Shown piece after piece: positions 8,825 through 47,800 of a stretch of DNA of 64,000 nucleotides. The stretch lies in the NCBI GenBank assembly GCA_016791115.1, contig JAEUNL010000072.1:1-64000 (forward strand). The letters run 5' to 3'. How positions within the stretch are numbered: the stretch's first letter is position 1; every line of letters starts with the position of its first letter. Under the pieces are notes generated by a model that searched no databases, was not told the DNA's origin, and saw only the letters and a list, made by a program, of their open reading frames with translations. A program made the translations under genes and the position numbers. The stretch is from Rhodocyclaceae bacterium. GTDB lineage: Bacteria > Pseudomonadota > Gammaproteobacteria > Burkholderiales > Rhodocyclaceae.

Positions 8825-10426
8825 ATGAGCACACGCGAGCGGATGTCCAGCGTCGATACGGCCTGGCTGCGCATGGACCGCCCGAACAACCTGATGATGA
8901 TCGTCGGCGTGATGGTGTTCGCCGGGCGCCTCGATTACGACCGCCTGCTCGCCACCGTGCGCGCCCGACTGCTGCCCTACCCGCGCTTCCACCGCCGCGT
9001 CGCCTTCGATGCATCGGGCGCGTTCTGGGAAGACGATCCCGATTTCGAACTCGAAACGCATGTGCTGCGCACCGCCCTGCCCGGCGAAGGCGGCAAGGCG
9101 GAACTGCAGAAGCTGGTGGCCGAGATGGTCAGCCAGCCGCTCAATCCCAGCAAGCCGCTGTGGCAGTTCCAGCTCGTCGACAACTACCTCGGCGGCTCGG
9201 CGATGATCGTGCGCATCCACCACTGCATCGCCGACGGCATTGCGCTGATCGGCGTCATGCAGTCGCTCACCGACGAATCCGCCGACGCACCGATCGAGTC
9301 CGGCGCCGGCGCGACCCAGATCGGCAAGAAGGCACGCGCGCGCAAGAGCGAGGGCAGCCTCTGGGATCCGGTGCTCGCGCCGCTCGAATCGGCTTTCGCC
9401 GCCACCGTCAAGTGGTCCGGCTCGCTGCTCAGCAAGTCGGTCGACATCTGGAACAATCCGCAGCAGGCCGCCGATCTGGCGCGCCTGTCGGCCGCGGTGG
9501 CCAACGATGTCGGCGAAATCGCGCTGATGGCCAACGACACGCCGACGCGCTTCAAAGGCAAGCCGGGCACCGTCAAGCGCGTCGCCTGGAGCGACCCGAT
9601 GTCGCTGGTCGAGATCAAGGCGGTCGGCAAGGCGCTCGGCTGTTCGGTCAATGACGTCATGCTTGCTTGCGTCGCCGGGGCGCTGCGCGAATACCTCGTG
9701 GCCTGCGGCGACGCGGTCGACGGCGTCGAGGTGCGCGCGATGGTGCCGGTGAACCTGCGCCCGCCCGGGCGCGAACACCAGCTCGGCAACCACTTCGGGC
9801 TGGTGCCGCTGCTGCTGCCGGTCGGCATCGCGCACCCGATCACGCGCGTGTTCGAAGTTCGCCGGCGCATGGAAAAGCTCAAGGGCTCCTACCAGCCGGT
9901 GCTCGCGATGGGCCTGCTCGGCGTCCTCGGCGTGTGCCCGAAGACCGTGCAATCGCAGATCCTCGATGTGCTGGCACGGCGCGCGAGCGCGGTCATGACC
10001 AACGTGCCCGGCCCGCAGAAGCAGCTCTGGTTGTGCGGCGAAAAACTCGCCGAGCAGATGTTCTGGGTGCCGCAGTCGGGCGACATCGGCATCGGCGTCT
10101 CGATCCTGTCCTACAACGGGCAAGTGCAGATGGGCGTCATCACCGACAAACGCTTCGTGCCCGATCCGGAAAAGATCGTCGCGCGTTTCGAGCCGGAGTT
10201 CGAGCACCTGCTGCTGTTGCTCCTGATGGAACCGTGGGACGGCGAGCGCAGCACCGACGAGATCGAGCGCATCCTGAGCGGACAGGCGGCCGCGCCGGCC
10301 GAAGCGCCGCCGAAAAAAGCTCCGGCACGCCGGAAGCAACCCGCCGCGTCCGCAGCCGAAGCGCCGCAGGCTGGCGAGTCGGCGCCGACAGCCACGCCGC
10401 ACCGCATCCCCAAGCGGTTTCGCTGA
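8825..10426 (+). CDS. wax ester synthase / diacylglycerol O-acyltransferase
   Basis: The 533-residue protein belongs to the WS/DGAT family, which joins acyl-CoA to long-chain alcohols or diacylglycerol to build storage lipid at the inner membrane. The catalytic HHCIADG (HHxxxDG) motif is near residue 133 in IVRIHHCIADGIAL. Family marks continue with PLNPSKPLWQFQLVD upstream, PVNLRP and LGNHFGLVPLLLPV, and TNVPGPQKQLWLCG in the C-terminal half. The last 50 residues are Ala/Pro/Lys-rich and probably disordered. The start MSTRERMSSVDTAWLRMD follows CCCGGAGCG; the frame is open to 8618 but that extension lies antisense to the acyl-CoA-binding gene. Residues around the motif favour true acyltransferase activity; substrate preference is unknown. 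Confidence 0.9.
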   Translation: MSTRERMSSVDTAWLRMDRPNNLMMIVGVMVFAGRLDYDRLLATVRARLLPYPRFHRRVAFDASGAFWEDDPDFELETHVLRTALPGEGGKAELQKLVAEMVSQPLNPSKPLWQFQLVDNYLGGSAMIVRIHHCIADGIALIGVMQSLTDESADAPIESGAGATQIGKKARARKSEGSLWDPVLAPLESAFAATVKWSGSLLSKSVDIWNNPQQAADLARLSAAVANDVGEIALMANDTPTRFKGKPGTVKRVAWSDPMSLVEIKAVGKALGCSVNDVMLACVAGALREYLVACGDAVDGVEVRAMVPVNLRPPGREHQLGNHFGLVPLLLPVGIAHPITRVFEVRRRMEKLKGSYQPVLAMGLLGVLGVCPKTVQSQILDVLARRASAVMTNVPGPQKQLWLCGEKLAEQMFWVPQSGDIGIGVSILSYNGQVQMGVITDKRFVPDPEKIVARFEPEFEHLLLLLLMEPWDGERSTDEIERILSGQAAAPAEAPPKKAPARRKQPAASAAEAPQAGESAPTATPHRIPKRFR

Positions 10427-10564
10427 ACGCCAGCGCAAGCCGAACCGGCCCGCGCCTTCGGGTTTGCCCCAAAAGCGGGCTGCCTGCCTTATCGGTCAAA
10501 ATCGCCCCTTCCTGGCACGCCGGACGGCGCGCCGATTTCCACCGCAACCGCGAGGACGCCCGAC

Positions 10565-11350
10565 TTGCCCCGGCTGGCTGCAAATCTCACCCTGCTGTTC
10601 AATGAATTCGATTTCCTCGAGCGCTTCGGCGCCGCGGCGCATGCCGGTTTTCGCGGCGTCGAATTCCTCTTTCCTTACGCCTATCCGAAGGCGCAGCTTG
10701 CGGAGCTGCTGCAACGGAACGGCCTGGTCCAGGTGCTGCACAACCTGCCACCCGGTGACTGGGCGGCAGGCGAACGCGGCATCGCCTGCCACCCGGACCG
10801 TATCGGCGAATTCCAGGACGGCGTCGGCCTGGCCATCGAGTACGCGACCGCGCTCGGCTGCCGGCAACTGAACTGCCTCGCCGGCTTGGTGCCGGCGAAG
10901 GCCGATCCCGGCCGCGTGCGCGAAACTTTCGTCGCCAACCTTCGCTTTGCGGCAACCGCACTGGCAACGGCTGGCATCCGCCTGCTGGTCGAGCCGATCA
11001 ACACCTTCGACATGCCCGGCTTCTACGTGAACCGCTCGGCGCAGGCGATCGAACTGATCGACGCCGCCCGCCATGACAACATCTTTCTGCAGCACGACCT
11101 CTATCACATGCAGCGCATGGAAGGCGAACTCGCCGCCACCGTGCAGCGCCTGCTGCCGCGCATCGCCCACATGCAGCTTGCCGACAATCCCGGCCGCCAC
11201 GAGCCCGGCACCGGCGAGATCAACTACCCGTTCCTGTTCGACTGGATCGACAGCCTGGGCTACGACGGCTGGATCGGCTGCGAATACCGCCCGAAGACCA
11301 CCACACACGACGGCCTCGGCTGGGCCGACCGTTGGCTGAAACAGCCATGA
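10565..11350 (+). CDS. hyi: hydroxypyruvate isomerase, TTG start
   Basis: The 261-residue TIM-barrel enzyme interconverts hydroxypyruvate and tartronate semialdehyde in glyoxylate assimilation. It reads PRLAANLTLLFNE at the start, LLVEPINTFDMPGFYVN (with the metal-binding Glu) near residue 140, IFLQHDLYHMQRMEGEL near 175, and WIGCEYRPK near the end, all typical of Hyi. The start codon is TTG at 10565 behind CGAGGACG; no ATG fits. It is followed 28 bases later by the reductase that uses the product, so the two form a unit. The glyoxylate carboligase gene (gcl) that normally supplies the substrate is not in the window. Confidence 0.92.
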   Translation: MPRLAANLTLLFNEFDFLERFGAAAHAGFRGVEFLFPYAYPKAQLAELLQRNGLVQVLHNLPPGDWAAGERGIACHPDRIGEFQDGVGLAIEYATALGCRQLNCLAGLVPAKADPGRVRETFVANLRFAATALATAGIRLLVEPINTFDMPGFYVNRSAQAIELIDAARHDNIFLQHDLYHMQRMEGELAATVQRLLPRIAHMQLADNPGRHEPGTGEINYPFLFDWIDSLGYDGWIGCEYRPKTTTHDGLGWADRWLKQP

Positions 11351-11378
11351 CCACACGACAAGACCCCAAGGAGACAGC

Positions 11379-12281
11379 ATGAGCAACATCGGTTTCATCG
11401 GCCTCGGCATCATGGGCACGCCCATGGCCGGGCACCTGATCAAGGGCGGCCACACGCTGTTCCTGCACAGCCGCAGCGGCGTACCCGCTGCCCTGCTCGA
11501 GGCGGGCGGCCGCGCCTGCGCCAGTGCGCAGGAAGTGGCGCGCAATGCTGACGTCGTCATCACCATGGTGCCCGACACGCCCGACGTGGAGCGCTTGCTG
11601 TTCGGCGACGGCGGTGTCGCGGCCGGCCTCAGCCAGGGCAAGCTGGTGATCGACATGAGCTCGATCTCGCCGGTCGAAACCAAGGCGTTCGCGCGCCGCA
11701 TCGGCGAACTCGGCTGCGACTACCTCGACGCGCCGGTTTCCGGCGGCGAGGTCGGCGCCAAGAACGCCGCGCTGACCATCATGGTCGGCGGCAGCGAGGC
11801 CGCATTCGCGCGCGCCAAGCCGCTGTTCGATCTGATGGGCAAGAACATCACCCTGGTCGGCGGCAACGGAGACGGCCAGACCGCCAAGGTGGCCAACCAG
11901 ATCATCGTCGCCCTCAACATCGAGGCCGTCGGCGAGGCGCTGCTGTTCGCTGCCAAGGCCGGCGCCGATCCGGCGAAGGTGCGCCAGGCACTGATGGGCG
12001 GCTTCGCCGCGTCCCGCATCCTCGAAGTGCATGGCGAGCGCATGATCCGCCGGACCTTCGACCCGGGCTTTCGCATCGGGCTGCACCAGAAGGATCTCAA
12101 CCTCGCACTGTCCGCGGCGCGCAGCCTCGGCGTATCGCTGCCCAACACCGCGACTGCGCAGGAACTTTTCAACGCCTGCGCCGCCCACGGCGGCAAGAGC
12201 TGGGATCACTCGGCGATGGTGCGTGCGCTGGAGAAACTCGCCAACCACGAGATCGGGCAGGCCGCGCCTGCCGCCGACTGA
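11379..12281 (+). CDS. glxR: 2-hydroxy-3-oxopropionate (tartronate semialdehyde) reductase
   Basis: The 300-residue member of the 3-hydroxyisobutyrate dehydrogenase family reduces tartronate semialdehyde to D-glycerate with NAD(P)H. It shows the N-terminal Rossmann motif GFIGLGIMGTPMAGHL, the substrate-binding DAPVSGGEVGAKNAAL near residue 120, and the catalytic Lys in TAKVANQI near 171. KDLNLAL in the C-terminal helical domain is also typical. GGAG lies before the ATG. Pairing with hyi identifies the substrate better than sequence alone, since the family also includes hydroxyisobutyrate dehydrogenases. A GC-rich hairpin follows the gene. Confidence 0.92.
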   Translation: MSNIGFIGLGIMGTPMAGHLIKGGHTLFLHSRSGVPAALLEAGGRACASAQEVARNADVVITMVPDTPDVERLLFGDGGVAAGLSQGKLVIDMSSISPVETKAFARRIGELGCDYLDAPVSGGEVGAKNAALTIMVGGSEAAFARAKPLFDLMGKNITLVGGNGDGQTAKVANQIIVALNIEAVGEALLFAAKAGADPAKVRQALMGGFAASRILEVHGERMIRRTFDPGFRIGLHQKDLNLALSAARSLGVSLPNTATAQELFNACAAHGGKSWDHSAMVRALEKLANHEIGQAAPAAD

Positions 12282-12294
12282 CGCAGCGCATGCC

Positions 12295-12313
12295 CCGCCG
12301 CCGCGTGCGGCGG
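12295..12313. terminator. GC-rich hairpin between convergent genes
   Basis: CCGCCGC and GCGGCGG form a perfect 7-bp stem with a 5-base loop, 13 bases after the glxR stop and 21 bases before the end of the convergent lipoprotein gene. No T-run follows, so it is only a candidate. Confidence 0.4.
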
Positions 12314-12333
12314 CAGCCCAACTGCCCCGCCCC

Positions 12334-12654
12334 TCAGCGGAAGCAGCCTGCGTAGCGCCCGCGCTTCTCCAGCGCCAGGATGTTCTGCTCCATCGTCGAG
12401 CGGATCATCAGGATCTCGAAACCGAACGCCTCCTGCGCACGGTCGTGGCCGACCACCTGCTGGCGCCCGACCTCGCCGCGCACCCAAGCGCACTCTGTCT
12501 GGCGCTGTTCCTCGTTCAGCGGCGCCGGGCGCGAGGCCACCCAGTCTGCATAACTTCCCGGCGGCGGCACGGTCGCGCAACCGGCCAACAGCGCGAACAC
12601 GAGCAGGCTCGCTGCCACGGGCGGGATTCGGCCAGAGCGACGTTCAGGTTTCAT
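12334..12654 (-). CDS. small hypothetical lipoprotein
   Basis: The 106-residue product begins with a basic head, a hydrophobic stretch and the lipobox LLAGC near residue 25, so it should be lipidated and exported. The rest is soluble and includes EEQRQTECAWVRGEVGRQQ, a central MIRSTMEQNILALEKRG helix and a C-terminal Cys. The conserved-looking pair of Cys after the lipobox could form a disulfide. I do not recognise a family. It stands alone, convergent with glxR and divergent from the tRNA-Leu gene. Confidence 0.7.
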   Translation of the reverse strand: MKPERRSGRIPPVAASLLVFALLAGCATVPPPGSYADWVASRPAPLNEEQRQTECAWVRGEVGRQQVVGHDRAQEAFGFEILMIRSTMEQNILALEKRGRYAGCFR

Positions 12655-12759
12655 GGGGCGGCGTCCGTTGGATCAGGAAGTTCAAATCCTAGCAGCCTTT
12701 CGTTCCATCCGGCCGAGGCGCCGGGCGGCGCGCCGCCATGCGACAATGCGCCCCGTGGA

Positions 12760-13070
12760 GCGCCCATGGCGAAATTGGTAGACGCAAGGGACTTGATTCA
12801 ATTTGAGCACCGGGAGGCGAAAGCGCCCGCGTGAATGGCGTCAAATTCAGCGAACCCCCTGTCGCGAGACGAGGCAACGCTGAGCGAAGCCCGCCGCAGG
12901 CCGCAGCGGGAACGTGCAGAGACTTGACGGCGCCGGCCTAAGGCATCGCCGCTATGGCCAAGGCAAAGTCCAGACCACGAACATCGCTGCGGCGATGGCG
13001 GCGTAAGCCGAAGTGGCAAGAAAATCCCTCGACTTCGGTCATGCCGGTTCGACCCCGGCTGGGCGCACCA
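12760..13070 (+). tRNA. tRNA-Leu(UAA), split by a group I intron, CCA encoded
   Basis: The exons are 12760-12794 and 13021-13070 (85 nt joined). The acceptor stem is GCGCCCA with TGGGCGC, followed by A and an encoded CCA. The D stem is GCG/CGC with an AAATTGGTAGA loop, and the anticodon stem is AGGGA/TCCCT. The variable arm GAC-TTCG-GTC is long as in class II tRNAs, and the T arm is GCCGG-TTCGACC-CCGGC. Joining the exons gives the loop CTTAAAA, so the anticodon is UAA and the intron lies directly after U34. A standard scanner may miss the gene because of the 226-nt insert. No other tRNA lies nearby. Confidence 0.93.
12795..13020 (+). ncRNA. group I intron (subgroup IC3-like) in the anticodon loop
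   Basis: The 226-nt insert ends in G (omega-G) and carries the group I core. The P3 strand GGCGTCAA lies at 12837-12844, with partner TTGACG at 12924-12929. The R-type segment TGCAGAGACTTGACGG and the S-type segment AAGGCAAAGTCCAG pair as P7 (GACTT 12921-12925 with AAGTC 12966-12970). The P9 hairpin CATCGC-TGCG-GCGATG spans 12982-12997. A GC-GAAA-GC hairpin near 12817-12824 looks like the GNRA-capped P2. P1 pairs exon CTT with intron GAG, giving the usual U-G pair at the splice site. The core closely resembles the Azoarcus tRNA-Ile intron, whereas the insertion site is that of the cyanobacterial tRNA-Leu(UAA) intron. There is no homing endonuclease gene. Self-splicing is inferred. Confidence 0.93.
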
Positions 13071-13112
13071 CGCATCCACTGTTCGCTCGACACTCGCGGA
13101 TCGGCCGCGCCA

Positions 13113-13175
13113 AGAGGCGCATGGAACGGACCTCTGCAGCCATGACGGCCTGCGTCGCCCTATCCATGCGGGTCG
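13113..13175. repeat. possible short copy of the CGCATGGA/TCCATGCG palindromic repeat
   Basis: GGCGCATGGA at 13116-13125 and TCCATGCGGGT near 13162-13173 form inverted ends like those of the other intergenic repeats in this window, and GGCATGCCGGCC follows at about 13179. The copy is shorter (about 60 bases) and more diverged than the others, so membership is tentative. Confidence 0.4.
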
Positions 13176-13250
13176 CACGGCATGCCGGCCTGCACCGCCC
13201 CAGGCATGCGGCTTTCCGCACCATCGGCGCGCGGCCTCGATAGCGCGCCT

Positions 13251-13270
13251 GCGCCTGCGGCCGCAGGCGC
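13251..13270. terminator. perfect 20-base palindrome downstream of the DUF1223 gene
   Basis: GCGCCTGC-GGCC-GCAGGCGC is a perfect palindrome that can fold into an 8-bp stem with a GGCC loop. On the minus strand it lies 19 bases after the stop of the 13290-14072 gene. There is no T-run, so it is a candidate terminator only. Confidence 0.4.
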
Positions 13271-13289
13271 GTCGCATCCGCGTCCGCGC

Positions 13290-14072
13290 TCAGCCGGCTG
13301 CGCAGGCGCCGGTGCTGACCGCCTGAAGCACATCGCCCTTCGCCGAGTAAACGATCGCCGCCGTCCCCAGCGCGGCGCGTCGCCACGACGCGTCGATCGA
13401 AGCGTCGGCGACATGATCGATGCCCCCGCTCCGATCAACCGGAAATGGCCCCAGCCACGCCCTCACGACGAAATCGTGATCGAGTTTCGCGCCACGATTC
13501 TCGCCGGCCTGAACGACCGACTCGAGCCCATTCTCGAACAGGGCAATGTGCACATAGGCCCCGCGCGCCACCGATGGATCGTCGATGCTGCCGCTGACGC
13601 GCACCCTCCAGGCGCCATCGCCGCCGGCGGATCGTTCGATCGCCACGCGTGCAGCGGCCGGGCCCGGACTGTCGGCACGAGCGCGATCGAACCGCAGGCC
13701 GCTTGCCCAGCCGCGTTCGTCGCGGCCGTCGATCATCACCTGGGGCGTATAGACGGTGCGTGAGCCTTGTCGCGCAACGGCATCGCGCTGCCGCCGCGAG
13801 AACTCGGCCTTCGCGAAACGATCCTTCCACCCGATGTAGTCCCAGTCGTCGACGTGGAACGCAAGCGGCACCACCCATCCGTTCTGCGCCGCGCGCTTCA
13901 GCCCCGACAGCCAGCGGTCGGCCGGCGGACAACTGCTGCAGCCTTCCGACGTGTAAAGCTCCACCACCGGCACCTTGTGCGTACCGCTCATGGCACGGCA
14001 GGTGGGCGCTGCCTGCACAGTGGCGCTCGCCAGCCCGGCAACCAGGAACAACGCAAACGTGATCGGCTTCAT
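13290..14072 (-). CDS. exported DUF1223 family thioredoxin-like protein
   Basis: The 260-residue protein has a clear signal peptide (MKPITFALFLVAGLASATVQA) and the DUF1223 signature VELYTSEGCSSCPPADRWL, a CxxC-containing thioredoxin-like start. AFHVDDWDYIGWKDRFA and VYTPQVMIDGRDE are also family marks. Such proteins are periplasmic and thought to be redox related, but no substrate is known. The frame opens at 14105, but ATG at 14072 has GGAGGTGG 5 bases before it and starts the signal peptide, so it was chosen. The final GACAAG tail contains one more Cys. Confidence 0.88.
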   Translation of the reverse strand: MKPITFALFLVAGLASATVQAAPTCRAMSGTHKVPVVELYTSEGCSSCPPADRWLSGLKRAAQNGWVVPLAFHVDDWDYIGWKDRFAKAEFSRRQRDAVARQGSRTVYTPQVMIDGRDERGWASGLRFDRARADSPGPAAARVAIERSAGGDGAWRVRVSGSIDDPSVARGAYVHIALFENGLESVVQAGENRGAKLDHDFVVRAWLGPFPVDRSGGIDHVADASIDASWRRAALGTAAIVYSAKGDVLQAVSTGACAAG

Positions 14073-14205
14073 GATCCACCTCCGCCAAGCGGGTCGCCCG
14101 GGCAATGCCCGTCATGCAAGCAGACCGCGCCCGGCAGCCGATCCTTACGCCGTGCTGTCGCGGCGGCGGGAGCGCCTCTTGAAAGCGAGCAACGTGAAAA
14201 GCCAA

Positions 14206-14758
14206 GACAGACGACAAGCCGAACAACAAGGGGGCATGCGCGTAACCGGCGACCGTACTGACTCAAAGCCCCAACGCGCCCTGCCCCGCCGCCGCGGGCG
14301 GAACAGCAGGTTCGCCTGCCCCAGCGCATTCGCGCGATAGCTGGTCCAGCGGTAGTGCGCCGGATCCTCCACCCTGGCGGCGCACAGCAGATTGAGTTCG
14401 ATGTAGCGTTGGCAGGCCGGCAGACAGGTATCGGCCTGGATCAGCGAAGACTTGTAGCGGCTGCCCCACAGCGTGCAGGTGCGTCGATAGGTGGTGTTGA
14501 TGTACTGCACGTAGCGCCGCCCCAGTGCGATGACAGCCGCGGCACCGCCTCGGCTTTGCGCGGTGTGAGCAGCAGATGCACATGGTTGGTCATCAACGCA
14601 TGGGCGTGCAGCGCGCAATGCGCCTCTTCCAGCGCCTCGCCCAGCCAATGCAGGCAGGCAGGCGAAATAGTCCGCCTCGGCAAAGAAGCACGGCTGACGG
14701 TTGTGGCCGCGCTGCACGATGCGCCGCGGCACGCCATCGAACTGGATGCGCGGGCCAC
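14206..14758 (-). pseudogene. decayed REP-associated tyrosine transposase (RAYT/Y1 family)
   Basis: Pieces of one Y1 (IS200-like, RAYT) transposase are spread over different frames. IQFDGVPRRIVQRGHNRQPCFF is followed in another frame by HALMTNHVHLLLTPRK, the HUH-type metal-binding segment (N-H-V-H-L). A return to the first frame gives RRYVQYINTTYRRTCTLW, RYIELNLLCAARVEDP and YRWTSYRANALG. At least two frameshifts (near 14660 and 14515) and a small N-terminal deletion break the reading, and the C-terminus runs into unrelated sequence. Intact members act on short palindromic REP sequences, which is of interest because the window contains dispersed palindromic repeats. Confidence 0.85.
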
Positions 14759-14934
14759 GGGGCGTGGATTCGCTTTAGACCAGATCAGGAAACACCACGG
14801 CCCTCTCTACTTCGTTCTTCTTTGCTTCCTATTGAATCGAGGACCCTCATTCGTTTGAGATGTGACATCTGACAATCATCGACCAGAAAAGCGACGGCGC
14901 ACGGGGCCGCGTCGTCGCGCCGCCGTTCGGCCGA

Positions 14935-15918
<984 letters not shown>

Positions 15919-16180
15919 TGGAGTACCTCGATTGGAAATGCGTGGCAGTTATCAGAAACGGACATCGTGGCTTGTGGACGGGGCCAAGCCATCTTGTCTG
16001 CTGCCATTCCTCGAGGTTCTTATTTGTTCCCGCGTGCGCCCAATCCGCGCGCGGGGTGGTGGACTCTCCGGTTCGCATGGTACCGGAAAAGAAGTCCTAC
16101 TCTTCAAAGTTACGACCAGAACCACAAATAACCGGAATAAACAGCAGAGCAAATAACCAGCAAATAAGCAGGGACAGATC

Positions 16181-17024
16181 CAATGCCGTTAAGTTAGGCC
16201 ATGTGCATGCTATCAGACGGGTTTGTAAGCGCGATGGCGAGTAGGTTTGACGGCCTGCCGGGATCGTGGGAATGATCGATGCGGGCGTCGCCATTCGAGG
16301 GTTCTGGCGATGAGGTCGAGCAGGCGGCGCAAGGTGGCTACCGGATTTCGCAAGCGCAGCAACAGACGAGGCAGCGTGGTCCGGACGGCAGAGATGGCAT
16401 AGCTCAGATTGGGAACGAAGTTTCGGCGCTTCTCTTCCGGTAGCGCGGCATGCGCCAGATATCCAAAGGTGGCGACCAGATTGCCCAACCAGACCTTGGC
16501 CAGGAAGTCTTGCCGGATCGACTCGGGCAGTTCGCCGGAGAAGTGCTCGACGGCCAGACGGCACTTGAGTTGTTTGAAACACTCCTCGATGCGTCAGCGA
16601 CGGTGGTAGAGCGCGGCGAACTCACGGGCCGGGAAAGCCGTTGCGTCGAGGAGGGAGGTGACCAGGAACTCGCTTTGCCCGGACGGCGGAAGGACGCGAA
16701 TCAGACGGATGGGAAAGCGGTGCATTTCGGTCTTGAAGCCTTGAGCGGCTGCCTTGCGGGCGGCTGCTGCCGGGATGACGACGTGAACGATCGTCTCTGT
16801 CAAGGCTGGCGACCAGTGTGGAGAAGGTCAGGGTGCGGCGGCGTGTGAAATCCGTGGCGTTTGCGCGATGTGCCGCAATGAATTCGTCAGACGCAAGCGC
16901 CGCATTGATCTGAGCAAACAGCATGGTATGGAAGTTGCAAAGTCATTCTTCGCCTATCCCGTTGAAAAGCAATCACTTTGCAGGCAGTATTCTATCATGA
17001 CTTTGGCCTAACTTAACGGCATTG
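16181..17024. mobile_element. internally deleted IS4-family-like insertion sequence with terminal inverted repeats
   Basis: A perfect 21-bp inverted repeat, CAATGCCGTTAAGTTAGGCCA, bounds the element at 16181-16201 and, inverted, at 17004-17024. Between them lies the remains of one transposase gene on the minus strand. The element is only 844 bp and its catalytic core is missing, so it is an internal-deletion derivative that could move only in trans. No obvious target-site duplication flanks the repeats. Part of its right end is unusually AT-rich compared with the host. Confidence 0.82.
16213..16924 (-). pseudogene. IS4-family transposase remnant with deleted DDE core
   Basis: The N-terminal fragment MLFAQINAALASDEFIA, then FTRRRTLTFSTLVASL, is typical of IS4-type transposase starts. 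It joins abruptly, with a frame change near 16803, to TETIVHVVIPAAAARKAAAQGF. The latter continues through LIRVLPPSGQSEFLVTSLLD and, after another frame change near 16600, through YHRRWRIEECFKQLK (the Y-R-E-K signature with the catalytic Glu). It ends HRAYKPV at 16213. Most of the segment with the first two catalytic Asp residues is missing, so the product cannot be active. Confidence 0.82.
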
Positions 17025-17397
17025 AAGGCATTGTGAAGGCATTGGGGACGGACCACGAATTCTCACCGGAGCAAGAGCGGCCAAGCTCGAATCGATTCCC
17101 ACAACCGTTCTTCGCGGCCGCGCCTTCCGCTTTTCCCCCGCCATATCGATTCCCATTGAACCCTGCCTAACCGATGTGGATGTTTCCCGAGCATCGATCC
17201 AGCGTCCAGCAGGCCGGATGACCAAGGCGCCGTGCCGATGAACGCACCAGCGCGCGTTCCATAGAAAGCATGAAACCCGCATGGACAGGCGCTCCCAGCC
17301 TTGCCCGCCCTGCAACGCCCACCCCGCCTGCCGCGCAGGCCGCCGTGCCCCCGGCACGCCTATCCACGCGCCCTCCAGCCCGGCGGGTTACGCGGCT
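17025..17397. other. 373-base intergenic stretch with a palindromic repeat copy
   Basis: No protein gene is supported here. The left part follows the IS end and contains a short tandem GAAGGCATTG-type repeat (17023-17047). The right part, 17272-17380, is one copy of the window's CGCATGGA palindromic repeat. Short ORFs across the region have no family resemblance. Confidence 0.6.
17272..17380. repeat. dispersed palindromic repeat, copy 1
   Basis: The copy opens with GAAACCCGCATGGACAGGCG and closes with TATCCACGCGCCCTCCAGCC. The ends are imperfect inverted repeats, and the interior is GC-rich with GCCGTGCCCCCGGCACGCC forming a nested hairpin. It shares its opening bases CGCATGGACAGGCGCTC with the copy after mfd. 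It ends just before the stop of the LapA-like gene. Confidence 0.65.
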
Positions 17398-17814
17398 TTA
17401 CCCCCGCCCGAGCACCCGGTCGAGCTTGTCGTCCATCTGCCCGATGTCGGCGGAAACTCCGTTGGCGACTTCGGTCATGGCCTGCCGGAGGCCGGCGACC
17501 TGCTGGTCGAGATGAGCGGAGAGTTCGGTGAAGCGCGAGGCTTCGGCCTTGTCGGCGAGTTCGCGCTGGGCGGCGAGTTCCTGCGCCATGCGGCGCGATT
17601 CGGTGTACATGGCGGTGCGCAGCAGCAGGATGTAGAGCCCGAGCAGCAGCACGACGAGCACCAGGGCGGAGAGCAGGATCATGCCGAGCGGCATGTCGAC
17701 CGTGCCGACGATCAGCGAAACCGGCACCGGGGTGGCGAGCGCGTTCCAGTTGACCAGCGCGAAGGCACCGATGAGGGTGAGCACGACGAGAATCACGATT
17801 CCCAGCCATTTCAT
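17398..17814 (-). CDS. LapA-like (DUF1049 type) small membrane protein with coiled coil
   Basis: The 138-residue product has two membrane segments, about residues 3-21 (WLGIVILVVLTLIGAFALV) and 43-65, followed by a charged helical tail of about 70 residues. The pattern of two helices and a cytosolic coiled coil, with LVNWN between the helices, resembles LapA/YciS proteins, which act with LapB in lipopolysaccharide control in enterobacteria. The similarity is modest and no lapB lies nearby. The gene starts 25 bases after the radA stop and GGAGGCAGTGCA precedes the ATG, so it is probably the last gene of an alr-radA unit. Confidence 0.7.
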   Translation of the reverse strand: MKWLGIVILVVLTLIGAFALVNWNALATPVPVSLIVGTVDMPLGMILLSALVLVVLLLGLYILLLRTAMYTESRRMAQELAAQRELADKAEASRFTELSAHLDQQVAGLRQAMTEVANGVSADIGQMDDKLDRVLGRG

Positions 17815-44846: not shown

Positions 44847-47800
44847 ATGCCCGCACTGCCCTCTTCGCTCGACACCCTTGCCCTGCCGAAACCCGGATCA
44901 AAGCTCGACCTGCCGCCGCTGGCCGGCGCCAGCGACGCACTCTGGCTGTCCCGGATCGCGCAACCCGGCCGCCTGCTGGCGGTCGTCACCGCCAACCCCC
45001 TCGACGCCCAGCGCCTGCAGGACGAGATCCGCTGGTTCGCGCCGCAACTTGCGGTGCGCGTGCTGCCCGACTGGGAAACCCTGCCCTACGATTCGTTCTC
45101 GCCGCACGAGGACCTGATTTCCGAGCGGCTCGCCACGCTCTACGACATCCAGCGCGGCGCCTGCGACGTGGTGCTGGTGCCGGCGTCGACGGCGCTGTAC
45201 CGCATGGCGCCGCCGGCCTATCTCGCTGCCTACACCTTTTTCCTCAAGCAGGGGCAGAAGCTGGATGTCGAGGGTTTCCGCAACCAGATGACCCTGGCCG
45301 GCTACGCCCACGTCACGCAGGTGGTGAGCCCGGGCGAATACAGCGTGCGCGGCGGCCTGATCGACCTGTTCCCGATGGGTTCGGCGGTGCCCTACCGCAT
45401 TGACCTGTTCGATGACGAAATCGAGTCGCTCAAGACCTTCGACGTCGACACCCAGCGCACCATTTATCCGGTGCCGGAAATCCGCCTGTTGCCCGCGCGC
45501 GAGTTCGCGCTCGACGACAAGGCACGCACGCGCTTCCGCCAGCGCTTCCGCGAGGAGTTCGAGGGCGATCCGTCGCGCTCGACGATCTACAAGGACGTTT
45601 CCAACGGCATCGCGCCGGCCGGCATCGAATACTGGCTGCCGCTGTTCCACGAGGAAACCGCAACCCTGTTCGACTACCTAAAGCCGGACACGCTGGTGTG
45701 CCTGCATCACGATGTTCCCGCAGCGATCGGCGAGTTCTGGCGCGACCTGAAAAGCCGCTACGACCTGCTCAAGTCCGACCGGGCGCGCCCGTTGCTGGCG
45801 CCGACGCAGATGTTCCTCGACGAGGAGCGCTTCTTCGTCGGCCTGCAGGACTTCGCCCGTATCGGCGTGTCGTCCGCGCGCGCCGAACCGGCCGATCGCG
45901 CGACCCAGCCGCTGCCCGACGTCTCGGTCGACCGCAAGGCGGCCGATCCGCTGGCGCGGCTGCGCGCGTTCTGCGCGGGCTTCGACGGGCGCGTGCTGCT
46001 GCTCGCCGAATCGCCCGGCCGGCGCGAGACGATTCACGACTACCTGAGGGAATACGGCCTGCAGGCCGATGCCGCCACCGACTTCGCGTCCTTCGGCGAA
46101 ACCGGCATCGCGCTGGGCCTGGCCGTCGCGCCGCTCGCCGCCGGCTTCGTCTGGCTGCAGGCGAAACTCGCCTTGGTCACCGAGAACGAGCTTTACCCGA
46201 CCACCGCGCGCACCCGCGGCAAGCGCACCGAGACGCGCCAGGCCAGCGTCGAAGGCTGGCTGCGCGACCTCACCGAACTGAAGATCGGCGATCCGATCGT
46301 GCATGCGAGCCACGGCATCGGGCGCTACCACGGCCTGGTGCACCTCGACCTCGGCGAGGGTGACACCGAGTTCCTCCACCTCGAATACGCCGGCGACGCC
46401 AAGCTCTACGTGCCGGTATCGCAACTGCATGTCATCTCGCGCTACAGCGGCGTGGCGCCCGAACAGGTCGAGCTGCACACGCTCGGCTCAGGCCAGTGGG
46501 AAAAGGCGAAGAAGCGCGCTGCCCAGCAGGTGCGCGACACCGCTGCCGAACTGCTCGCGCTCTACGCGCAGCGCGCCGCGCGCAAGGGGCACACGTTCGA
46601 CTTCAAACAGCACGACATGGAAGCCTTCGCCGACGGCTTCGGCTTCGAGGAAACACCCGACCAGCTTGCCGCGATCAACGCGGTGGTGGCCGACATGCGC
46701 TCCGGCAAGCCGATGGACCGGCTGGTGTGCGGCGACGTCGGCTTCGGCAAGACCGAGGTTGCGCTGCGCGCGGCCTTCGTCGCCGTCGCCGACGGCAAGC
46801 AGGTCGCCATCCTGGCGCCGACCACGCTGCTCGCCGAGCAGCATTTCCAGACCTTCTCGGACCGCTTCGCCGACTGGCCGGTGAAGCTCGCCGAGCTGTC
46901 GCGCTTCCGCAGCGCGAAGGAGCAGGCGGCGGCGCTCGAACAGCTCGCCGAGGGCAAGATCGACATCCTGATCGGCACCCACCGGCTGCTGCAGAAGGAC
47001 GTGAAGTTCACCCGGCTCGGCCTCGTCATCATCGACGAGGAACACCGCTTCGGCGTGCGCCAGAAGGAGGCGCTGAAAGCGCTGCGCGCGGAGGTCGACG
47101 TGCTGACGCTGACCGCGACGCCGATCCCGCGCACACTCGGCCTCGCGCTCGAAGGCATGCGGGATTTCTCCGTGATCGCCACCGCGCCGAGCCGCCGGCT
47201 TGCCATCAAGACTTTCGTTTCCCCGTGGTCGCGCGGGCTGATCCGCGAGGCGGTGCTGCGCGAATTCAAGCGCGGCGGGCAGGTGTACTTCCTGCACAAC
47301 GAGGTCGACACCATCGAGACGATGCGCAACCACCTGGCCGAGCTGCTGCCCGAGGCACGCATCGTGATCGGCCACGGCCAGCTGCCGGAGCGCGAACTGG
47401 AACGCGTGATGCGCGACTTCACGCAGCAGAAATCGAATCTGCTGCTGTGCTCGACCATCATCGAGACCGGCATCGACAATCCGCATGCCAACACCATCAT
47501 CATCAACCGCGCCGACAAGTTCGGCATCGCCCAGCTGCACCAGCTGCGCGGGCGCGTCGGACGTTCGCACCACCAGGCCTACGCCTACCTGCTGACCGAC
47601 CGCGACGCCAAGCCGTCGAAGCAGGCCGAGCGCCGGCTCGAAGCGATCCAGATGTCGGAGGAACTCGGCAGCGGCTTCTTCCTCGCCATGCACGACCTGG
47701 AGATCCGCGGTGCCGGCGAGATCCTCGGCGAGAACCAGAGCGGCGAGATCCAGGAAATCGGCTTCTCGCTTTACACACAGATGCTCAACACGGCCGTCAA

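Follow-up and report, generated by a model that had tools for sequence, protein, structure and literature searches.

A group I intron in the sole tRNA-Leu(UAA) gene identified in a Rhodocyclaceae bacterium and its kin among proteobacterial tRNA-Leu introns

The locus at positions 12760-13070 of contig JAEUNL010000072.1 (assembly GCA_016791115.1), of which the first 64,000 nucleotides were analysed (the window), raises the question of whether a member of the Rhodocyclaceae carries its tRNA-Leu(UAA) gene split within the anticodon by a group I intron, and if so, from where such an intron came. The original prediction, made from the sequence, was that removal of a 226-nt insert after U34 leaves a complete class II tRNA-Leu(UAA), and this was borne out. 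When introns of 100-400 nt were allowed, ARAGORN reported a sole gene in the window, a tRNA-Leu(UAA) at 12760-13070 (+) with the anticodon taa and a 226-nt intron at tRNA position 36. The 5′ exon (12760-12794, +) ends in U34, the intron occupies 12795-13020 (+), and the 3′ exon (13021-13070, +) supplies A35 and A36, the variable arm, the T arm and an encoded CCA (13068-13070); joining the exons gives an 85-nt tRNA in which ARAGORN finds all stems paired. The Rfam group I model RF00028 matched 12788-12989 with 35.4 bits (E 1.6e-7, in a search of 431 bases), and this was the one RF00028 match in the genome. The split gene is nevertheless overlooked by ARAGORN run on the window without introns and by a gathering-level Rfam scan of the window, which was empty since the score does not reach the RF00028 gathering score of 50. 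That value is a curation threshold and not a biological feature, and it is strict for introns of this kind because 19 of the 24 genomes of the host's family with RF00028 matches, this one included, stay below 50 bits. Thus, the lack of any group I model match, which the original prediction had named as the result that would speak against it, is seen at the curated threshold only. Together with the covariation described below, these data confirm that the insert is a real group I intron in tRNA-Leu(UAA).

Following the common architecture of group I introns, we assigned 65 base pairs to the window intron and scored them across 42 introns aligned with MAFFT, namely the window intron and 41 picked from 71 references, with cyanobacteria and introns longer than 262 nt excluded beforehand and one row with an incomplete 3′ end (L122) retained. 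The named pairs were paired in 92.1% of cells, compared to 78.3% (sd 0.4) in shuffles and 29-43% (max 42.9%) when the partners were slid, a control that tilts in the structure's favour because one of the aligned rows had served to draw it. Changes on both sides were found in 341 cells compared to 95.1 (sd 10.1) in shuffles, and 37 pairs were changed on both sides compared to 27.5 (sd 2.1), with the caveat that kinship among the rows can beat shuffles without any structure.

All elements lie on the plus strand. In P1 (12792-12807; 99.5% paired), the exon sequence CUU followed by GA (12792-12796) pairs with UUGAG (12803-12807) and places a U-G pair at the 5′ splice site, which can be read directly in the window and is present in 42 of the 42 introns. 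The intron ends in G, as do 114 of 114 introns from distinct genomes (118 rows of the pattern search, four family rows and L003, minus nine repeats), a count that must be read with the fact that the cutting rule itself requires G. P2 (12808-12833) was 88.3% paired, with one named pair open in 23 of the 42 rows. The strands of P3 (12837-12842 with 12929-12934) were 99.6% paired with both-side changes in four of six pairs, and those of P7 (12921-12925 with 12966-12970) 99.5% with both-side changes in three of five. P4 (12846-12852 with 12878-12884) encloses P5 within 12846-12884, the two being 93.9% and 78.6% paired, and is followed by P6 and P6a (12885-12914; 100% and 90.3%), the loop of which is the site of an antisense ORF in long relatives. 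In P8 (12935-12959; 80.2%), the four outer pairs hold and the two inner ones are poorly supported (A-U in 11 of the 42 rows only), while in the P9 domain (12975-13016) P9, P9a and P9b were 97.0%, 92.8% and 100% paired, and an additional P9a pair 83.3%. The predicted P3, P7 and P9 elements, the U-G splice pair and the terminal G are thus all present, and a pseudoknotted P3/P7 group I core is present and strongly covarying; the P4-P6 domain of group I introns is likewise found, P5 being its weaker helix. Free-energy folding of the intron alone was set aside as uninformative about the core: it gave z = -2.0, with 7 of 200 shuffles folding equally well, and P3, P7 and P9 as named were absent from the minimum-energy structure.

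No second UAA gene was found among the 37 tRNA matches of the genome, each of which was run through ARAGORN, and the Leu isoacceptors CAA, UAG, CAG and GAG have one gene each. Since the assembly (73 contigs) is 92.5% complete and the same 37 matches also lack tRNAs for Trp, His, Ile(GAU), Ala(UGC) and Ser(GGA), another tRNA-Leu(UAA) could be missing from it. With no intact copy seen, the cell would be expected to depend on splicing. ARAGORN also named a tRNA-Ser(cga) at 47381-47472 (-) of the window that has no Rfam tRNA match and is probably spurious, because a scoring tRNA-Ser(cga) lies elsewhere in the genome (L030).

The same question was asked of the host's class. A search pattern for the interrupted gene matched 22 of 369 genomes, so that this tRNA, by inference essential, is split in about 6% of those sampled; of the 22 loci, 21 were returned by ARAGORN as interrupted tRNAs, L200 under the name Ser because of a shifted split, and the remaining locus runs off a contig end. 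A pattern for the intact gene matched 244 of the 369 genomes. Both forms occurred together in one of the 22 interrupted genomes (G377, which carries the long intron L199), compared to an intact match in 243 of the 347 others (Fisher p 6e-10), indicating that interrupted and intact tRNA-Leu(UAA) are nearly mutually exclusive in these genomes. The intact pattern is strict, and the 104 remaining genomes are consequently not all without the gene. Within the family, intact matches were found in none of the five Leu-intron genomes and in 97 of 194 others (p 0.06).

RF00028 gave 27 matches in those 24 of the family's 199 genomes. Leu(UAA) introns after U34 occur in at least 5 of the 199, a lower bound because the search filters were strict. 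The tRNA introns of the family by site were Leu(UAA) after U34 (five), Ser(UGA) after U34 (two), Thr(UGU) after U34 (two) and Ile(CAU) after U36 (nine) or U33 (nine), so that five tRNA sites bear group I introns within one bacterial family. The nine introns between U33 and C34 of tRNA-Ile(CAU) (L049-L057) are 247-268 nt long and form one clade (100/99); we know of no description of this site. Splits were corrected by hand rules for the genes named 'tRNA-Stop(tta)' on plasmids, for the 'Leu(taa)' call of L057 and for the Ile introns L035, L037 and L039, and seven rows among the 118 with an interrupted gene, which ARAGORN named Ser or Phe through a shifted split, were recut by rule.

In named public genomes, the pattern scan yielded at least 119 stretches, and 97 of the matches listed were interrupted tRNA-Leu genes: 46 from Gammaproteobacteria, 26 from Betaproteobacteria, 15 from Cyanobacteriota, 5 from Pseudomonadota without a class, 2 from Acidobacteriota and one each from Ca. 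Muproteobacteria, Planctomycetota and an unplaced organism. Most of the other 22 listed were intact tRNA-Leu genes in which the variable arm satisfies the search pattern, the rest being a few chance matches and one contig-end locus. The scan is no census, and the titles of MAG records can be wrong. The insertion point in the 15 cyanobacterial rows (12 split by ARAGORN, 3 recut by rule) is that of the window intron, as predicted, and the suspicion of a spread wider than usually drawn is supported. The notion that this site is unexpected in Proteobacteria is not supported: Beta- and Gammaproteobacteria account for 72 of the 97 listed records, and a tRNA-Leu-TAA carrying a putative group I intron has been reported for Beggiatoa and Ca. 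Thiomargarita nelsonii (PMC4853749). Given these published cases and the frequency in the class, the surprise is weaker than originally held. Two MAGs titled Klebsiella pneumoniae (L186 and L097) also match the pattern, L097 without an interrupted gene; L186 has a tRNA-Leu intron with an HNH-like ORF, which makes its label suspect.

To place the window intron among its relatives, we inferred a tree for 136 introns from 199 columns of the core with P1 omitted, and a second tree in which five long rows were left out; the bootstrap was unsettled in both. In the first tree, the window intron paired with L046, an intron of the same family that is 85% identical, at 100/99. In the second, obtained after the removal of the long rows, the two lay in a clade of 12 Leu introns (95/83), all betaproteobacterial or from their own family save one unplaced proteobacterial MAG. 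The mean identity of the window intron was 0.65 to the other Leu introns (max 0.85) and 0.60 to the 205-nt tRNA-Ile(CAU) introns, the Azoarcus type by length and likeness, and by these values the Azoarcus-like look of its core marks no special link. Azoarcus and cyanobacterial tRNA introns both belong to subgroup IC3, and the window intron would be expected to do so too. From these comparisons it appears fairly clear that the nearest kin of the window intron are other proteobacterial tRNA-Leu(UAA) introns.

We consider it very probable that the locus holds an ordinary and probably active group I intron of the bacterial tRNA-anticodon type, which splits the single tRNA-Leu(UAA) identified behind U34, an ORF-less copy some of whose kin were probably spread by an HNH-like nuclease. 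A decayed copy, in which the intron no longer splices, the tRNA is dead and UUA and UUG are read by a tRNA-Leu(UAA) missing from the assembly, would fit the Rfam score below the gathering cut-off and an incomplete assembly in which further tRNAs were not found. We regard this as improbable, given exons that are intact with all stems paired and CCA encoded, core pairs that hold, the lack of any other UAA gene among the matches and an interrupted gene that is nearly always the sole match in genomes of the class.

Transfer between tRNAs was one of two readings offered by the original prediction. Entry into tRNA-Leu from another tRNA by reverse splicing, whether from an Azoarcus-type tRNA-Ile(CAU) or from a tRNA-Ser(UGA), whose introns also follow U34, seems slightly less probable still. 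The same family does contain Ile, Ser and Thr tRNA introns, the first tree set the window intron and L046 beside two tRNA-Ser introns with weak support (41/50), and a grouping of the window intron with the Azoarcus-type Ile introns was not rejected (p-AU 0.48 in the first tree and 0.40 in the second). Set against this, the twelve rows most similar to the window intron are all tRNA-Leu introns (0.85 to 0.70, compared to 0.66 for Ser and 0.60 for Ile), and since its 12-row clade sits inside a Leu-only clade of 44 rows (96/97), a recent transfer from another tRNA need not be invoked. Direct gain from cyanobacteria is the least probable of the three: the insertion site is the same, P1 is similar, and a grouping of the window intron with 13 cyanobacterial rows was not rejected (p-AU 0.45 and 0.24), but the mean identity to cyanobacterial Leu introns, 0.55, was the lowest of six groups compared, and 13 of the 15 cyanobacterial rows group in a clade of their own far from it (100/100). 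The phylogenetic comparison that had been proposed thus points to proteobacterial Leu introns as kin, while neither the Azoarcus-type nor the cyanobacterial grouping is rejected by it.

An ordinary, active intron would act by the known chemistry of its family. The transcript would fold so that P1 presents U34 paired to G, guanosine would attack after U34, and the freed U34 would then attack after the terminal G of the intron to join the exons into a tRNA expected to read UUA and UUG.

The relatives differ in length. Among the introns of the 114 distinct genomes, 102 measure 210-358 nt and one 401 nt, and the other 11 reach 681-706 nt (L075, L079, L083, L098, L103, L132, L164, L165, L172, L186 and L195); two of the 11 come from hosts whose labels place them in other groups than Beta- and Gammaproteobacteria, one an Acidobacteriota and the other a Ca. 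Muproteobacteria MAG. Every one of the 11 long introns holds an ORF of 135-168 codons (about 155; stop included) antisense to the tRNA, and in the alignment all of these ORFs share the P6 loop as their insertion point. Two of the encoded proteins were scanned and matched Pfam HNH_3, one below the cut-off (E 7.8e-4) and one above it (E 2.1e-6). One has relatives in 185 phage records (E <= 1e-5), the best-ranked 50% identical, and several of the matches listed are annotated as HNH endonucleases; the comparison of the HNH-like protein with solved structures gave a single weak match, to McrA (E 0.19). This antisense HNH-like ORF is a likely homing endonuclease gene. It probably drove homing into intron-less tRNA-Leu genes and offers a direct, testable means by which tRNA introns could spread. 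The window intron, whose 226 nt lie inside the range of the 102 short relatives, has no endonuclease ORF, and the HNH-like protein of L098 had no match in its genome at E <= 1 in a search run without a positive control. The window copy is now likely inherited or passively moved.

Close likeness between distant hosts makes lateral movement of tRNA-Leu introns or genes within the Proteobacteria likely. The introns of the gammaproteobacterium Lysobacter concretionis and the betaproteobacterium Ottowia beijingensis are 97% identical, and because their exons are identical too, whole-gene transfer is as likely here as intron homing; between Variovorax WDL1 and Rhodanobacter thiooxydans, intron and exons are each 93% identical. 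With cyanobacteria as the root of the tree, the introns of Ile, Ser and Thr tRNAs branch from within the Leu introns, a picture in which the root was chosen and a single clade of all Leu introns is not rejected: such a clade lies 15.4 log units lower with p-AU 0.32 without the long rows, and 51.0 log units lower with p-AU 0.125 with them. We offer only tentatively, as less likely than not, the broader proposal that the proteobacterial Leu introns are one old lineage, mobile to this day and carried by an HNH homing endonuclease that is encoded antisense in P6 and targets the tRNA-Leu anticodon loop. In this view ORF-less introns such as the window's are spent copies, and the Ile (Azoarcus-type), Ser and Thr introns of Proteobacteria arose by hops from one anticodon loop to another, with tRNA-Leu rather than tRNA-Ile as the source. 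Several origins of the family's Leu introns are not supported when the five family rows with codes are taken alone (p-AU 0.25 and 0.16), while one clade is rejected once an Azonexus MAG row is added to them (p-AU 0.010 and 0.008). A horizontal gain of the two cyanobacterial introns nested among Thiotrichaceae (Myxacorys and Oscillatoriaceae) was dropped, as a single clade of all 15 cyanobacterial rows fits equally well (p-AU 0.51 and 0.51).

Among known systems, the cyanobacterial tRNA-Leu(UAA) introns, like the window's, interrupt the same gene at the same point after U34 and have a similar P1 and a terminal G, but they are far from it in sequence and, for 13 of the 15 rows, in the tree; the group I introns of plastid tRNA-Leu(UAA) share the gene and insertion point of the cyanobacterial ones. 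The Azoarcus-type Ile(CAU) introns come from the same bacterial family and have the same core and a similar size, whereas they are inserted after U36 of another tRNA. An endonuclease-encoding intron in a cyanobacterial tRNA-fMet, reported by Bonocora and Shub in 2001, shows that a nuclease encoded in an intron and directed at the anticodon region of a tRNA would not be without precedent; it differs in its tRNA and in its nuclease, reportedly of the PD-(D/E)XK family compared to an HNH-like one in the Leu relatives, and the window intron has no ORF.

The hosts of the Beggiatoa and Thiomargarita introns are gammaproteobacteria, the intron type and structure were not determined in the accessible part of that report (PMC4853749), and the Thiotrichaceae introns in our tree fall in another clade than the window's. 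BbgpI of Bartonella bacilliformis, an example of the group I introns in the tRNA-Arg(CCU) of Alphaproteobacteria, is described as splicing in vivo and self-splicing in vitro (PMC7717549); like the window's, these alphaproteobacterial introns lie in an unannotated tRNA gene (PMC7717549), but in another tRNA at another site, and they are outside the present tree. Introns in tRNA-Ile2, again a different tRNA, were noted by tRNAscan-SE 2.0 in Acidovorax and Burkholderia (PMC8450103). The available text of one review (PMC3984707) contains neither 'tRNA-Leu', 'tRNALeu' nor 'proteobacteri', and its references name the tRNA-fMet intron endonuclease and a study of the tRNA(Leu)(UAA) intron. No report of an HNH ORF in tRNA-Leu introns and no survey of proteobacterial tRNA-Leu introns was found in the part of the literature searched, which lay mostly outside subscription papers. 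The window intron adds to already known proteobacterial tRNA-Leu(UAA) introns, and its lineage is under-described and probably mobile. The sequence set assembled here makes the relationship of the proteobacterial introns to those of cyanobacterial and plastid trnL testable.

The tRNA-Leu(UAA) gene looks chromosomal. By Pfam, the ORFs beside it are xylose-isomerase-like, a 6-phosphogluconate/3-hydroxyisobutyrate-type dehydrogenase, a DUF1223 protein and an alcohol dehydrogenase; no integrase was noticed by eye among the ORFs at 9000-17500, six window ORFs being searched against Pfam, and a scan of 12600-13300 found no promoter- or terminator-like site. When six window proteins were searched against the collected loci for an empty site, the dehydrogenase at 14935-15918 had two weak matches and the other five had none. 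In a comparison of window:11379-14105 with 41 relatives, the matches were the upstream dehydrogenase gene, tRNA and intron stretches and the DUF1223 gene, and among the matches listed no genome had a tRNA stretch beside either of these genes. Neither search turned up a relative in which the same neighbours flank an empty site. Downstream of the tRNA, overlapping frames at 14145-14758 (-) resemble, on visual inspection, a REP-type transposase gene with a frameshift.

Related genes also occur on plasmids. The megaplasmid of Mycetohabitans endofungorum has, at L003 2990-3337, a tRNA-Leu(UAA) of unusual sequence with a 263-nt intron. Furthermore, 1270 plasmid records, 1111 of which bear Enterobacterales genus names, match window:12700-13130 at 60-80% identity, and among the matches listed the similarity covers the 5′ exon and the intron. 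In plasmids L002 (2994-3292) and L004 (2994-3292), a tRNA-Leu-like gene is split by an intron of group I type, 213 nt long in L002, and in L004, which is pCTX-M3, this gene has a predicted aac(3)-IId gene in its vicinity.
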